DNA from: Fidelibacterota bacterium
Lineage (GTDB): Bacteria; Fidelibacterota; UBA8477
Reading direction: 5' to 3'
DNA length: 36,480 nucleotides
Assembly: GCA_021734065.1 (NCBI GenBank)
Contig: JAIPJQ010000010.1
Span: 1 to 36,480 of the forward strand
The notes under the pieces are model-generated. The model was not told where the DNA came from. It did no database searches and saw nothing but the letters and a program-made list of their open reading frames with translations. Made by a program: the position numbers and the translations under genes. Below are positions 14,415-24,861 of the stretch, in pieces (position 1 is the first letter of the stretch; each line of letters begins with the position of its first letter).

Positions 14415-14476
14415 TCCCTGGCAAGTGAGCGTGTAACCTGAATACCCCAACCCCATCCAAGTAGGGCGATTTGACA

Positions 14477-15061
14477 ATGGAAGAGTCGCCCGAACTGATT
14501 CAATCTGCACGTGCTGGTGACAGCCGGGCGCAGACGCAGCTGGTGAATATGTATTCCGGCCGCATTTTTAATCTGGGATTACGTATGCTGCGGAACCGGG
14601 AAGATGCGGAGGATTTACTTCAGGAGACATTCATCACCGCGTTTAAAAAGCTGGATACTTTCAAGGAGAAATCCAGCTTTTACACCTGGGTGTACCGGAT
14701 TGCAGTGAACATTGCGTTGGGGAGATTACGTGAGCAGTCGAAGATGAAAATTGCCTATTCGATTCAGGAGCCGGATTTTGAAAATCTGCAGGGACTTTCG
14801 ATTTCTGATTGGCCGGTTCATATCGAGACGAAAATAACCGATGAGGAATTTCGCACGGCACTTGATGCCACGCTGGATGATTTGCCTGAGAAATACCGTT
14901 CGGTATTCGTTCTGCGAGACCTGGAAGGGCATTCAACGGAAGAGACGGCAAAAATGCTGGATTTGACTGTGAGCAATGTTAAGGTACGACTCATGCGGGC
15001 GCGCTTATTTCTGCGGGACCGTTTGAATGCATATTTAAAACGTAAGGGCTGGTTGGTTTAA
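14477..15061 (+). CDS. ECF-type RNA polymerase sigma factor
   Basis: 194 residues from ATG 14477 (GTAGGG ten bases upstream; TTG 14471 is the alternative). Region 2 is at about 20-85, with LRNREDAEDLLQETFITAFKKLDTF and the WVYRIAVNIAL segment. Region 4 is at about 130-180: LDDLPEKYRSVFVLRDLEGHSTEETAKML, then the helix-turn-helix VSNVKVRLMRARLFLRDRL. It is RpoE-like. The anti-sigma candidate follows four bases later, then glutaredoxin and groES, so the sigma factor probably answers a thiol or protein-folding stress. Confidence 0.92.
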   Translation: MEESPELIQSARAGDSRAQTQLVNMYSGRIFNLGLRMLRNREDAEDLLQETFITAFKKLDTFKEKSSFYTWVYRIAVNIALGRLREQSKMKIAYSIQEPDFENLQGLSISDWPVHIETKITDEEFRTALDATLDDLPEKYRSVFVLRDLEGHSTEETAKMLDLTVSNVKVRLMRARLFLRDRLNAYLKRKGWLV

Positions 15062-15589: not shown

Positions 15590-15859
15590 ATGAAAATCCA
15601 ACCATTGGATGACCGTGTATTAGTTGAACCAGCTGCTGAAGAGGAAAAAACTGCCTCAGGGATTATCATTCCGGACACAGCAAAAGAGAAACCGCGTCGT
15701 GGCAAAGTCGTTGCCGTGGGAAATGACGAGGAGTTACAGGGGCTTCTGAAAGTGAATGACGAGGTCCTGTATGGGAAATACGCCGGCGATGAATTGCAGT
15801 ATGACGGGAAGGATTATTTAATCCTGTCACGGAGTGATATTCTCGCGAAACTTGCCTAA
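15590..15859 (+). CDS. groES: Co-chaperonin GroES without an adjacent groEL
   Basis: 89 residues. [15 protein letters not shown] start, the mobile loop [13 protein letters not shown] at 18-30, and the [13 protein letters not shown] end segment are standard. It caps the GroEL ring during protein folding. AGGAGG lies close before the start. Normally groEL follows directly, but here a strong terminator begins 20 bases after the stop. The gene is therefore the last of the sigma/anti-sigma/glutaredoxin run. groEL must be elsewhere, or this is a second copy. Confidence 0.94.
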
Positions 15860-16046: not shown

Positions 16047-17408
16047 ATGAGTATGAGATATATCATTATAGGTGGCGATGCAGCCGGGATGAGCGCAGCA
16101 AGCCGTATAAAACGGAATGACAAGCATGCCGAAGTCATTGTATATGAGCGGGATGCCCATATTAGTTATGCTGCCTGTGGCATGCCCTACTGGTTAGGTG
16201 GCGTGGTTGGTTCAGACAAAGATTTACAGATTTTAACGCCTAAGATTGCAAAAGAAAAACGGGGCATTGATGTGCGGACTCACCATGAAGTTGTCGCCAT
16301 CGAAGCTGCCCAGCGCCATGTAACCGTTCATGACCTGAAGAAGGGTGAGCTGGAGGATGTGAGCTTTGATCATCTGATCATTGCCACAGGTGCGTCGGCT
16401 ATCCGTCCCCATATCCCCGGCGCCTTGGCTGAGGGTGTCTTTACGCTGCGGACGCTTGTAGAGGGGCAAAAGATTTTCAAATTCATGGAAGAAAATGGTC
16501 CCCGGAGGGCAGCCATTATCGGTGCCGGGTATATCGGATTGGAAATGGCGGAAGCCCTGCGGGGAAAAAACATGGATGTCCACATGGTTGAAATGGCACC
16601 CCATATCATGCCCAATTATTCCCCCGATATGGTGGAAGAGGTAACCACCCATTTGCAGGAAAATGGCGTCAATATATACCTGGAATCAAAACTGAAAGCC
16701 ATTAAAGAGCAGAAAAACGGCTTGAAGCTAGAAATGGAAGGTGCCACCACGGGGCTGATCGTTGATATGGTGATTCTGGCCACGGGTGTGAAACCCAATT
16801 CCGAGATGGCGAAAGAGGCGGGCTTGAAAATGGGGAAATCCGGCGCCATCTGGACGAACAAACGCTTGAAAACCAATGTGGATCGCATCTGGGCAGCGGG
16901 GGATTGCGCCGAGTTGGAGCATCGCGTTTTGGGCGAAGGTGTGTGGATACCGCTGGCGCCATCCGCAAATAAGACCGGCCGGATCGCGGGGGATAACGCG
17001 TCCGGTGGACATACGATTTTCCCGGGAATTCTGGGAACCAATGTGGTGAAAGTTTTTAATTATACCATGGCTTCCACGGGAATTACAGAGGAGATGGTAG
17101 AAGAGAGCGAGAAATTCCCTCATGTGACCAGCGTGGTGATCACCGAGAATGATCGGGCTGGTTATTACCCTGGGGCTGAACCGGTAAAAATCAAGCTCGT
17201 CTTTGACAAACGGGAAAAGAAAATCCTGGGTGCCCAAATGGTGGGGAAATCGGGTGTTGCCAAGCGGATTGATGTGTTGGCCACAGCCATTTCAGCGGGA
17301 ATGACGGCGGATGATCTGGCCATGTTGGATCTGGCTTACGCGCCACCCTACGCACCGGTGTATGATCCGGTGAATGTGGCAGGCAGTGTAGCCGGGAAAG
17401 TCAAATAA
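16047..17408 (+). CDS. FAD/NAD(P)H disulfide reductase (CoA-disulfide reductase type)
   Basis: 453 residues. FAD-binding GGDAAGMSAAS at 9-19; a single redox cysteine, Cys44, in ISYAACGMPYW, as in CoA-disulfide reductases and NADH oxidases; NAD-binding IIGAGYIGLEMAE near 157; AAGDCAE for the second FAD segment; and a C-terminal dimerisation domain ending YAPPYAPVYDPVN. This family reduces CoA disulfide, CoA persulfide or polysulfide. Rhodanese is fused to it in some relatives; here a separate rhodanese lies three genes downstream. GGAAGGAA before the start is a good ribosome site. First gene of a sulfur redox operon. Confidence 0.88.
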   Translation: MSMRYIIIGGDAAGMSAASRIKRNDKHAEVIVYERDAHISYAACGMPYWLGGVVGSDKDLQILTPKIAKEKRGIDVRTHHEVVAIEAAQRHVTVHDLKKGELEDVSFDHLIIATGASAIRPHIPGALAEGVFTLRTLVEGQKIFKFMEENGPRRAAIIGAGYIGLEMAEALRGKNMDVHMVEMAPHIMPNYSPDMVEEVTTHLQENGVNIYLESKLKAIKEQKNGLKLEMEGATTGLIVDMVILATGVKPNSEMAKEAGLKMGKSGAIWTNKRLKTNVDRIWAAGDCAELEHRVLGEGVWIPLAPSANKTGRIAGDNASGGHTIFPGILGTNVVKVFNYTMASTGITEEMVEESEKFPHVTSVVITENDRAGYYPGAEPVKIKLVFDKREKKILGAQMVGKSGVAKRIDVLATAISAGMTADDLAMLDLAYAPPYAPVYDPVNVAGSVAGKVK

Positions 17409-17425
17409 CAACAGAGCATGATTGT

Positions 17426-17641
17426 ATGATTCAGAAAGAGATGCTGATTGAAGATCTGGTTCAGAAACATCCTGAACTGATTGGCCCCCTGAAAGATGAA
17501 GGGATTGTTTGTCTGGCTTGCGGAGAACCCGTGTGGGGTACTTTGGAAGAACAGGCATCCCAGAAGGGCATTAAGGATATCAGCGGTTTGGTGGAGCGGA
17601 TGAATGATCGGCTGGAGAAACCTGAAAAAGACAATCGCTGA
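17426..17641 (+). CDS. DUF1858 protein with CxxC
   Basis: 71 residues. IEDLVQKHPELIGPLKDEGIVCLACGEPVWGTLEEQASQKGI is the DUF1858 helical fold, related to the N-terminal ScdA/RIC domain. Cys29 and Cys32 (CLAC) are the conserved pair. Function unknown; it is often coded beside rhodanese or hybrid-cluster genes. It lies between the flavoprotein and OsmC. Confidence 0.85.
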   Translation: MIQKEMLIEDLVQKHPELIGPLKDEGIVCLACGEPVWGTLEEQASQKGIKDISGLVERMNDRLEKPEKDNR

Positions 17642-17670: not shown

Positions 17671-18093
17671 ATGGCTGTGAAAATTCAGCAAGTGGGAAAT
17701 GCTGCCACATTCCTGGCAAAGGGTGATTCGGGACACTGGGTTGTCATGGATGGCCCGGAGCAGGTAGGTGGTTCCAATGCCGGATCACGTCCCATGGAGA
17801 TGGTGCTGTTCGCGTTGGGTGGCTGTACCGCCATGGATGTGACATCGATTTTAAATAAAATGAAAGTTCCGGTTGAGGACATTCAGATTGAAATCGAGTC
17901 GGAACGGGCCAAAGAGCATCCAAAAATCTATACCCGGATTGACATGACATTTCATTTTTACGGACCCGATCTGCCGTTGAAAAAATTGGAGCGGGCGGTT
18001 CATTTGTCTGAAAGCACCTACTGCTCCGTGACGGCTATGCTCTCTAAAACTACCGATATCACGGTACACATCGAGAACCATAACACGGCATAG
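17671..18093 (+). CDS. OsmC-family thiol peroxidase-like protein
   Basis: 140 residues. The two redox cysteines are Cys52 in FALGGCTAMDV and Cys118 in STYCSVTAML. The opening carries GGSNAGSRPMEMVL, typical of the YhfA/OsmC branch. OsmC proteins reduce organic hydroperoxides or handle persulfides with a Cys pair in the cytoplasm. It lies 29 bases after DUF1858 and four before the rhodanese gene. Confidence 0.9.
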   Translation: MAVKIQQVGNAATFLAKGDSGHWVVMDGPEQVGGSNAGSRPMEMVLFALGGCTAMDVTSILNKMKVPVEDIQIEIESERAKEHPKIYTRIDMTFHFYGPDLPLKKLERAVHLSESTYCSVTAMLSKTTDITVHIENHNTA

Positions 18094-18097
18094 AGCT

Positions 18098-18520
18098 ATG
18101 CGTAAGTCAATCATAATCGCAACTATCGTTCTGTTTGGAGCCGCTCTGGTGGTGCTGGGACTGGTGCAGTCGGACGCGTCACCCAAGTTCCCCAATATTT
18201 CTGCGGCTGAACTCAGCGAGAAAATTGGCATGAATGCCGATATTGTCCTGTTGGATGTGCGGACGAAATCGGAGTGGGATGGTCCGCTGGGACATTTGGA
18301 TGGCGCAAAGCTGATTCCTCTACAGGAATTTGGGAATCGATATAATGAATTAGATTCAGTGCAGCATAAAGAGATCATCGTCTATTGTCGTAGCGGGAAT
18401 CGTTCACAGGTGGCTACGGCATTGTTGCGGGAAAAGGGATTTAATGCCATTAACATGCTGGGCGGCATGCGCGCCTGGAAACAGCTGGAAAAACCCCAAA
18501 CATCAGAGGTGGAAAAGTGA
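18098..18520 (+). CDS. Membrane-anchored rhodanese-like sulfurtransferase
   Basis: 140 residues. The N-terminal helix SIIIATIVLFGAALVVLGLV (4-23) is a signal anchor, so the catalytic domain is outside the cytoplasm. Rhodanese domain 34-135: DIVLLDVRTKSEWDGPLGHLDGAKLIP, active-site loop YCRSGNRS with Cys97, and GFNAINMLGGMRAWK. It transfers sulfane sulfur. The stop overlaps the next gene (GTGA). Confidence 0.92.
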   Translation: MRKSIIIATIVLFGAALVVLGLVQSDASPKFPNISAAELSEKIGMNADIVLLDVRTKSEWDGPLGHLDGAKLIPLQEFGNRYNELDSVQHKEIIVYCRSGNRSQVATALLREKGFNAINMLGGMRAWKQLEKPQTSEVEK

Positions 18521-18723
18521 AAACCTGGATGAAATTAGCCCTTGGAATTGGTCTGGGGGCAGGGGTCGGATTTGCCTACTACTTTTTCATAGGCTGCAAA
18601 AGCGGTACCTGCGCCATTACCTCCAGCCCGGTGATTTCCACACTTTATGGTGCTGTGGTGGGATTGTTGTTTGCCTGGCCGGGGAAAAAGCGCGAAAACA
18701 AAAACGCTGAATCCACCGGTTAA
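18517..18723 (+). CDS. DUF6132-type small membrane protein
   Basis: 68 residues. GTG 18517 overlaps the rhodanese stop by four bases, with GAGGTGG upstream. Two helices (about 5-26 and 38-55) flank IGCKSGTCAITSSP, the Cys-x4-Cys loop typical of this family, which is usually found with thiol and sulfur proteins. Probably an inner-membrane partner of the rhodanese. Function not known. Confidence 0.8.
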   Translation: MKTWMKLALGIGLGAGVGFAYYFFIGCKSGTCAITSSPVISTLYGAVVGLLFAWPGKKRENKNAESTG

Positions 18724-18829: not shown

Positions 18830-18997
18830 ATGATCGATATTTTCATTTTTATAGCAGCCGTTTTCCTGTGGTTTGTCGTCACAGGATGGATATTACCACG
18901 CTTCAATATCACCGCCCCCACCTGAGGAGCCGGGATGTATTCTCCGGTGGAGAATGAGCGCCAGAACATGAAGAAGAGCGAAACCGACGAGGGATAA
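18830..18997 (+). CDS. Candidate selenocysteine micro-protein (in-frame TGA at 18923-18925)
   Basis: From ATG 18830 the frame codes 31 residues: a membrane helix (IFIFIAAVFLWFVVTGWI) then LPRFNITAPT, and TGA. Past the TGA the same frame continues GAGMYSPVENERQNMKKSETDEG to TAA 18995-18997. Read through as selenocysteine, it gives 55 residues with Sec32 just after the helix, in a place where a Cys would suit a membrane redox protein. A perfect hairpin with GGT loop lies 13 bases past the TGA. TGGAG at about 18817-18821 serves ATG 18830. The gene lies 106 bases after DUF6132 and six before the sorting-domain protein. Alternatively these are two tiny genes: the second could start at ATG 18935, with GAGGAG at 18924-18929. 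Selenocysteine is an inference from hairpin and context. Confidence 0.5.
18939..18955 (+). promoter_or_regulatory. Candidate bacterial SECIS hairpin after TGA
   Basis: ATTCTCC (18939-18945), loop GGT (18946-18948), GGAGAAT (18949-18955): a perfect 7-bp stem, extendable by one T-G wobble pair. The loop G lies 21 bases past the TGA (20 bases between). Bacterial SECIS elements are hairpins at about this distance with a small apical loop that has G near its start and are bound by SelB. A competing small stem GGAG (18926-18929)/CTCC (18942-18945) also exists. Confidence 0.5.
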
Positions 18998-19003
18998 AAC
19001 GCC

Positions 19004-19714
19004 ATGTCTACCCTGAAAAGAATGACCTTGTTTTTTCTGCTGATTGTGGCTGGAATGGGACAATCCAGGTTTTCTTTTATACATCAGGATACAAGTGTCA
19101 CCGGGCTTCATGAGTACTACCAGTACGAGGCTTGGATATACAATACATCCACCGATACGCTGCAATTAACCACCAACCGTCTCTACCGCACCACACCACC
19201 TGCTGAGTGGAGCGCCAGTATGTGTATCGAGATTGTCTGTTTGCCTCCTTTTATTGATGTTTATGATTTTAGTCTTTCTCCCGGAGATTCAGCTTGGTTT
19301 GCTCTGGACATTTATCCGTTTGAAGTAGAAGGTACGGGAGAATGGTCTATCGAGGTGATTGATTCCACCACCATGGAAGCAGATACGGCGGATATTGCTT
19401 ACACTTTTGGAGCGATTGGTGTTGTGGACGAGCCGGAAGCACCGGCACCGCGCGAATTTGGCGTGGTACAGGTATTCCCGAATCCCACGAATGCTGCGTT
19501 TAACACGATTTTACACAAAATGACTCCGGGCAGATATGAATTAACCCTGTTTGATTTAAATGGGCGTACCTTAGAAACCCGATGGTTGGAGATGAAGACG
19601 AGCGGACGGCATCTGTTGTCCTGGAATGTTGACCGGTACACGTCGGGCAGTTATGTATTGCGTATTGAAGGTGGGGGCTCTGTATGGGTGAAACGCGTCA
19701 CCATAATCAAATAA
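19004..19714 (+). CDS. Exported protein with T9SS-type C-terminal sorting domain
   Basis: 236 residues. Signal peptide RMTLFFLLIVAGMGQS; a beta-sandwich-like central part with CIEIVCLPPF (a Cys pair) and TSTDTLQLTTNRLYR; and a C-terminal sorting domain from about residue 155: VFPNPTNAAFNT, YELTLFDLNGRTL, SGSYVLRIEGGG, VKRVTIIK. The tail is read by type IX secretion or serves as a FlgD-like beta domain. The N-terminal domain is not recognised. The thioredoxin-like gene overlaps it by 31 bases. Confidence 0.75.
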   Translation: MSTLKRMTLFFLLIVAGMGQSRFSFIHQDTSVTGLHEYYQYEAWIYNTSTDTLQLTTNRLYRTTPPAEWSASMCIEIVCLPPFIDVYDFSLSPGDSAWFALDIYPFEVEGTGEWSIEVIDSTTMEADTADIAYTFGAIGVVDEPEAPAPREFGVVQVFPNPTNAAFNTILHKMTPGRYELTLFDLNGRTLETRWLEMKTSGRHLLSWNVDRYTSGSYVLRIEGGGSVWVKRVTIIK

Positions 19715-23724: not shown

Positions 23725-24861
23725 ATGAATTTATTTTCTCGATATATGATGACAAGGAATGGGCTGAAATTTGGGCTGATGTTTTTAATGCCCTTCTTGC
23801 TGAATGGCTGGGGTTGGGGATCGCACCGCTACATCAATGAACATGCCCTTGATTATTTGCCACCGGAAATGTCCTTTTTTCAGACGCAGCGAAGTTTCAT
23901 TCGCGAACATGCCGTGGACCCGGATCAGAGTAATAATCGCCCCAATTACTGGCATTATATCGACATTGACTATTATCCGGAATTTTTTGAAGGGACGCTA
24001 CCCACAGCTTTTGAAGATGTGGTGGCCTTATATGATTACAACACGGTAATTGATCAGGGAACCGTTCCCTGGGCGATCATGATTGAGATGGACAGCATGT
24101 CAAACCTCATGGCTGCCGGTGAATGGGCGATGGCCTGGCAGGCGGTGGCAGATCTGGGGCACTATGTGGCGGATTCTCATCAACCCATGCATCTCACGCT
24201 CAATTATAACGGACAAATGACCGGCAATTACGGCATCCATTCCCGATACGAAACCACACTCATCAATCCTCATCTGGATGAACTCCCGTTACCAACCGGG
24301 TTGGGTAGTTATTGGGAAAGTCCGTTGGACTCAGTATTCGGATATATCGGGGAAGTTTATCCCTATGTGGATCTGGTGATCGATGCGGATGACGCTGCCG
24401 GCGCGGTCGATCCCAATTATAACAGTACCTACTATTCCATGATGTGGGATTCGCTGGAGATTGTCACAACCGATGCCATTCATCGCTCAATCCTGGACCT
24501 GGCCAGTATCTGGTACACGGCCTGGATCAACGCCGGCAGCCCCTATCCGCCGGGATTGGCAACGCAGGATGAAATCATTCCCATGGGTTTTTCATTGCGC
24601 CCAAATTATCCCAATCCCTTTAATCCGGTCACCACGATCAGTTATCACCTGCCTGAAACCGGCCGGGTACAGTTGACCATTACTGATGTAGTTGGTGATA
24701 CGGTCCGTCAGTATGATCTGGGTGAACAGGGGGTGGGTGACCACGCGGTTGAGTGGGATGGGCGGGACCATTCGGCGCAACCGGTGGCAACCGGAATTTA
24801 TTTTGCACGATTGGCCGTAAATGGCGCCTCCGGCGTCATTAAAATGACCTATTTAAAATAG
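23725..24861 (+). CDS. S1/P1-like zinc-dependent nuclease/phospholipase with C-terminal FlgD/T9SS-type domain
   Basis: 378 residues. Signal peptide to about residue 28, then mature-end-like WGWGSHRYINEHAL (Trp29/Trp31, His34), as in S1/P1 and phospholipase C proteins, where the N-terminal Trp and His residues bind zinc. DLGHYVADSHQPMHL (His146, Asp150, His152, His156) gives more ligands. From about residue 296 a FlgD-like beta domain runs: NYPNPFNPVTTISYHLP, YDLGEQGVGDHAVEWDGRD, ATGIYFARL and end KMTYLK, a secretion and anchoring tail. Exported hydrolase for nucleic acid or phospholipid; the substrate is unknown. ATG 23746 is an alternative start. Confidence 0.75.
   Translation: MNLFSRYMMTRNGLKFGLMFLMPFLLNGWGWGSHRYINEHALDYLPPEMSFFQTQRSFIREHAVDPDQSNNRPNYWHYIDIDYYPEFFEGTLPTAFEDVVALYDYNTVIDQGTVPWAIMIEMDSMSNLMAAGEWAMAWQAVADLGHYVADSHQPMHLTLNYNGQMTGNYGIHSRYETTLINPHLDELPLPTGLGSYWESPLDSVFGYIGEVYPYVDLVIDADDAAGAVDPNYNSTYYSMMWDSLEIVTTDAIHRSILDLASIWYTAWINAGSPYPPGLATQDEIIPMGFSLRPNYPNPFNPVTTISYHLPETGRVQLTITDVVGDTVRQYDLGEQGVGDHAVEWDGRDHSAQPVATGIYFARLAVNGASGVIKMTYLK

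Follow-up and report, generated by a model that had tools for sequence, protein, structure and literature searches.

Discovery of bacterial selenoproteins leans largely on Cys/Sec pairs. The authors of deep-Sep acknowledge a blind spot for selenoproteins that have no Cys homologues (PMC12013277), and a catalogue from 2026, which covers 119 families and subfamilies of prokaryotic selenoproteins, among them selenoprotein forms of OsmC, rhodanese, DUF1858, CoA-disulfide reductase and FmdB proteins, holds nothing that matches the tiny membrane family described below (PMC13188914). The same work models the bSECIS element as a stem of 4–16 bp and a loop of 3–9 nt with a G in the first two loop positions, located 16–37 nt from the UGA (PMC13188914). 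Here we analyse a small gene in a window of 36,480 nt (the whole stretch of DNA studied) whose 55-residue product, judged from sequence, is almost certainly a selenoprotein. Searches of the literature on Marinimicrobia selenoproteins, on FmdB with selenoprotein and on DUF302 with DUF6132, with subscription papers and preprints mostly outside their scope, did not return the family.

An in-frame UGA followed by a bSECIS hairpin

The gene and its elements are as follows.

18830..18997, + strand: predicted selenoprotein gene of 55 codons with Sec32, comprising an N-terminal helix, LPRFNITAPT-U and a hydrophilic tail
18830..18922, + strand: N-terminal part with a predicted transmembrane helix, N-out/C-in by charge
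18923..18925, + strand: TGA very probably read as selenocysteine, from the site codons of homologues and the presence of SelB and tRNA-Sec in the genome
18939..18955, + strand: bSECIS hairpin ATTCTCC-GGT-GGAGAAT, 20 nt from TGA to loop

The frame is interrupted solely by the TGA, yielding the product MIDIFIFIAAVFLWFVVTGWILPRFNITAPT-U-GAGMYSPVENERQNMKKSETDEG, and ends in a TAA (18995–18997) placed 6 nt ahead of the next ATG at 19004. An earlier note on this DNA had described a 55-codon frame with a single in-frame TGA, a coding run that continues to a TAA shortly before the next gene, and a 7-bp hairpin with a GGT loop at bSECIS spacing; its coordinates proved exact, and the hairpin agrees with the bSECIS model in stem length, loop length, loop G and spacing, the features compared. 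Both congeneric genomes retain the TGA together with the downstream sequence (PTU..G.YSPGE). Other genes of the window, for example those for the rhodanese and a TlpA-like protein, end in TGA as an ordinary stop, and the genetic code is therefore not reassigned overall. When all 1504 TGA triplets on both strands of the window were scanned for a hairpin with at least seven Watson–Crick pairs and a G in the loop at 16–25 nt downstream, this TGA was the single match. Synonymous-codon shuffles of the window gene alone produced a stem of equal length in 2.4% of cases.

Homologues with UGA at the same site occur in at least five phyla

Using profiles built stepwise, we searched 245 genomes of Candidatus Neomarinimicrobiota, 147 genomes outside this phylum and then the phyla of genomes G301, G371 and G289. 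These searches recovered 108 homologues. Neomarinimicrobiota account for 33 (33 of 245 genomes, with TGA in all), and the other 75 come from four or more further phyla. Carriers outside Neomarinimicrobiota comprise 19 of the 147 sampled genomes, with 4 further carriers in the G371 phylum and 52 in the G289 phylum; in one other phylum, 53 of 82 genomes carry the Sec gene. The search across the phylum of G301 returned G301 itself as the sole carrier. Since the searches across the phyla of G301, G371 and G289 gave disjoint sets, the family spans at least five phyla once Neomarinimicrobiota and the remaining carriers are counted. Weak profile matches were set aside as chance, including L017, L036, L131 and L132, as well as L172–L176, which have no helix plus GxxT context; tblastn against plasmids gave chance matches only. 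L098 in G107 and its look-alikes in G108 and G109 were excluded as well: these hits are helices at the C terminus of a longer protein whose gene ends in TGA, apparently its natural C terminus.

At the Sec site, 106 of the 108 homologues have TGA, one has TGC and one TAA. The Cys homologue (L205, genome G437) reads ...VLPALGVPT-C-MSGHC..., and its hairpin is down to 3 bp. It is the kind of relative, with Cys at the Sec site, that the earlier note had proposed to look for. The same note had held that relatives ending in TAA or TAG at this site, with no conserved Cys or Sec, would speak against selenocysteine; the one TAA gene (L234, genome G450) also lacks an ATG start and is apparently decayed. 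G450 and G437, which contains L205 and L235, share a phylum and are possible cases of Sec loss.

The hairpin recurs across the family. Downstream of the TGA, 102 of 106 TGA homologues have a hairpin with 4 bp or more of stem and a G in the loop, and the loop lies 16–37 nt from the TGA in 105 of 106. In a set of 32 genes from Neomarinimicrobiota, stems are shorter than 4 bp in 7 and reach 4 bp or more in 25, against 5.4 genes expected to do so from synonymous-codon shuffling, and mean stem strength exceeds that of the shuffles with z = 13; the same test on 19 further genes (18 outside Neomarinimicrobiota plus that of G219) gave z = 14, an example being the hairpin of L161 (GGGACCGA-GGC-TCGGTCCC). 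The two arms covary, and the third stem pair of the 32 Neomarinimicrobiota genes is C-G in 28, T-A in 3 and G-C in 1. Over the five stem positions of 106 genes, base pairs form in 494 of 530 cells, compared with 362 (sd 7) when arms are shuffled within groups. This count used the register that gives the best stem, and the codon-shuffle test, which re-optimises the stem in every shuffle, is therefore the fairer of the two.

Selection on the protein extends past the UGA, with pN/pS of 0.62 downstream of the TGA (p = 0.003) and 0.20 upstream; the tail beyond the hairpin is weakly constrained (pN/pS 0.67, p = 0.08). Members of the family start with a short acidic segment, followed by a single transmembrane helix, LPK-x-GVPT-U and usually a tail of 15–30 residues. 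The consensus ahead of Sec is R/K-x-[IV]-L-P-[KR]-[LM]-G-[VI]-P-T-U, with T conserved in 105, G in 104 and P in 101 of 108 homologues. A Cys at position +5 (U-x4-C) is present in 63 of 75 homologues outside Neomarinimicrobiota and in 0 of 33 within.

Sec decoding machinery accompanies the gene

The host MAG (2.5 Mb, 82% complete) encodes a tRNA-Sec that scores 68 bits in a covariance model search, above the Rfam cut-off, and that ARAGORN also finds, with anticodon TCA. Adjacent selA and selB genes both exceed their NCBIfam cut-offs. The lack of selB or tRNA-Sec, which the earlier note had named as a refutation, thus does not apply. Outside Neomarinimicrobiota, SelB above cut-off occurs in 18 of 18 carriers tested versus 22 of 60 non-carriers (p = 7e-7), and within Neomarinimicrobiota in 31 of 33 carriers versus 136 of 212 non-carriers (p = 3e-4). 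No SelB match was found in carriers G081 (70% complete) and G134 (93% complete); both are incomplete MAGs, and the missing SelB perhaps reflects gaps in them. When the 22 of 60 are scaled to all non-carriers, a rough estimate puts carriers at about one quarter of the SelB-positive lineages sampled.

Predicted topology, gene neighbourhood and proposed role

By the positive-inside rule, positively charged residues flanking a membrane helix mark its cytoplasmic side. Over 108 homologues, the first five residues contain 105 D/E and 4 K/R, and the last 13 before Sec contain 189 K/R and 2 D/E. The acidic N terminus and the basic stretch ahead of Sec together indicate that the N terminus is outside and the Sec-bearing tail inside, from which we infer that Sec lies at the cytoplasmic face of the membrane.

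The gene closes a run of redox genes on the + strand of the window, the main members of which are listed below.

14471..15061, + strand: ECF sigma factor (Pfam), head of the redox gene run; relatives likewise have such a gene at the head of the operon
16047..17408, + strand: CoA-disulfide reductase-like flavoprotein (TIGR03385, E 2e-143, below the equivalog cut-off)
17426..17641, + strand: DUF1858-like / prismane-associated redox-disulfide domain, Cys form (PF08984 and TIGR03980, both below cut-off)
17671..18093, + strand: OsmC-like protein (PF02566)
18098..18520, + strand: rhodanese-domain protein (PF00581)
18517..18723, + strand: DUF6132 small membrane protein, upstream neighbour (Pfam PF19628), also in the operon of relatives

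In full, the run reads ECF sigma factor, an 83-residue putative anti-sigma factor, glutaredoxin, Cpn10, CoA-disulfide reductase-like protein, DUF1858-like protein, OsmC, rhodanese, DUF6132 and, last, the Sec gene. The Cpn10 (GroES) gene at 15590–15859 thus sits within a redox run headed by an ECF sigma factor gene. The DUF1858-like and CoA-disulfide-reductase-like proteins are Cys forms here, and both families have known selenoprotein forms. Elsewhere in the window, 23725–24861 encodes a secreted protein whose C-terminal sorting domain is FlgD/T9SS-like and whose N-terminal half by eye resembles an S1/P1 nuclease or phospholipase C fold.

In Neomarinimicrobiota, the gene order is sigma, anti-sigma, rhodanese/DUF1858-type, DUF6132, DUF302, Sec gene and FmdB. 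DUF302 proteins account for 14 neighbours over the 16 Neomarinimicrobiota loci scanned, and the start of the Sec gene commonly has a 4-nt overlap with the DUF302 stop. An FmdB-like start lies within 600 nt downstream at 29 of 32 Neomarinimicrobiota loci, 33 of 51 loci of the G289 phylum and 2 of 19 loci of other lineages; where FmdB (a zinc ribbon protein) follows, the stop of the Sec frame mostly falls between a 14-nt overlap with the FmdB start and a 20-nt gap from it. The window's own Sec gene has no FmdB gene downstream. In one relative a thioredoxin gene is near the Sec gene, and in L171 (genome G320) the Sec frame continues from the membrane head into a thioredoxin domain (WCGPCKK), giving a fusion protein of 212 residues. 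A tally of neighbours outside Neomarinimicrobiota revealed no common family; neighbours are not conserved beyond Neomarinimicrobiota and the G289 phylum, and the function is accordingly read from few lineages. The proposal that Sec32 acts with the upstream redox operon, made in the earlier note, gains support from the conserved synteny in relatives as a functional link with putative chemistry.

Taken as a whole, the locus is very likely to encode a small single-pass membrane selenoprotein in which a UGA decoded through SelB and the hairpin places a selenol at the cytoplasmic face, most likely for reductive thiol chemistry. SelB with Sec-tRNA would decode the in-frame UGA, guided by the hairpin beginning 13 nt past it. 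The short acidic N terminus would remain outside and the single helix would span the inner membrane, with the PK/PR ahead of Sec holding the tail inside and so presenting the selenol at the cytoplasmic membrane face. In most homologues outside Neomarinimicrobiota, U-x4-C might close into a selenenylsulfide, to be reduced by a thioredoxin-like partner; in Neomarinimicrobiota, which have no Cys at +5, the resolving thiol would have to come from a partner. Gene neighbours and the one thioredoxin fusion suggest that the protein most probably carries out reductive thiol chemistry at the inner membrane, acting on a disulfide, persulfide or peroxide, under ECF sigma control and with partners of rhodanese, DUF302 or FmdB type. 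On balance we favour such a membrane thiol/persulfide redox role.

Alternative explanations

Two other readings of the UGA would leave the gene without selenocysteine. The TGA might be a true stop that releases a 31-residue membrane peptide, followed by a second tiny gene starting at ATG 18935, an arrangement that the earlier note had regarded as a real alternative. The window does contain this ATG and a GAGGAG ahead of it, and neighbouring genes use TGA as an ordinary stop, but the second gene fails as an explanation because ATG 18935 and the GAGGAG are absent from both congeners, in which residues after the TGA are nevertheless conserved in frame. Moreover, TAA or TAG replaces TGA in a single homologue of 108 that has also lost its ATG start, Cys substitutes at the site in one homologue, and the hairpin is stronger than in codon shuffles, all of which make a true stop highly improbable. 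We give just as little credence to read-through of the UGA in which the hairpin would stimulate insertion of a residue other than Sec (Trp, Gly or near-cognate suppression). Hairpins 3′ of stop codons can in general stimulate read-through, but the presence of SelB in every carrier tested outside Neomarinimicrobiota, the sole sense-codon homologue carrying Cys and the use of TGA as a normal stop elsewhere in the window all argue for selenocysteine. Hairpin spacing and the loop G, which match the bSECIS model, point the same way (PMC13188914).

Accepting selenocysteine, the protein might serve in a role other than thiol redox, such as metal or arsenic/mercury handling, or as an accessory subunit of a membrane complex with a metal-binding selenol. 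No particular substrate follows from neighbours of DUF302, OsmC and rhodanese type, FmdB proteins are zinc ribbons, and several catalogued selenoproteins are part of metal systems (PMC13188914). Against this, the glutaredoxin, CoA-disulfide-reductase-like and TlpA-like genes of the window point to thiols, as do the thioredoxin gene in one relative and the thioredoxin fusion in another, and we consider a non-thiol role possible but rather unlikely.

Comparison with known families

No NCBIfam 20 or Pfam model scored above cut-off for the 18 members tested; matches to YoaK and DUF1936 (Pfam/NCBIfam) were below cut-off and not common to members. We think it probable that these proteins constitute a near-obligate Sec family of single-pass membrane mini-proteins, distributed over many phyla and overlooked because the reading frame has just some 30 codons ahead of the UGA and Cys homologues are almost absent, and that they represent a counterpart in architecture to eukaryotic SelK and SelS with new selenol chemistry at a membrane surface. 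That almost no member has a Cys form (1 of 108 homologues) is probably why the family escaped notice, an example of how the blind spot for Cys-less selenoproteins hides a common protein. Replacement of the selenol by Cys is so rare as to suggest chemistry for which sulfur is insufficient. The pattern LPK-x-G-x-x-T-U followed by a SECIS, often beside FmdB, offers an annotation rule, and the family provides a small target for experiments.

With the catalogued selenoprotein families the gene shares an in-frame UGA, a bSECIS directly downstream, a host with SelA, SelB and tRNA-Sec, and redox-type neighbours, but no catalogued name or motif fits LGVPT-U or U-x4-C on a single-pass mini-protein (PMC13188914). 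DUF6132 (PF19628) is likewise a small membrane protein, encoded in the same operon and carrying GCxxGTC directly past its helix, but it is a separate gene of a separate, Cys-based family. There is a likeness in architecture, and in architecture only, to eukaryotic SelK and SelS (VIMP), small single-pass membrane proteins that carry Sec in a probably disordered tail on the cytosolic side; in SelS, Sec is paired with a nearby Cys. Unlike SelK and SelS, the family described here uses a bacterial SECIS and bacterial machinery, and its Sec sits beside the membrane rather than near the C terminus.
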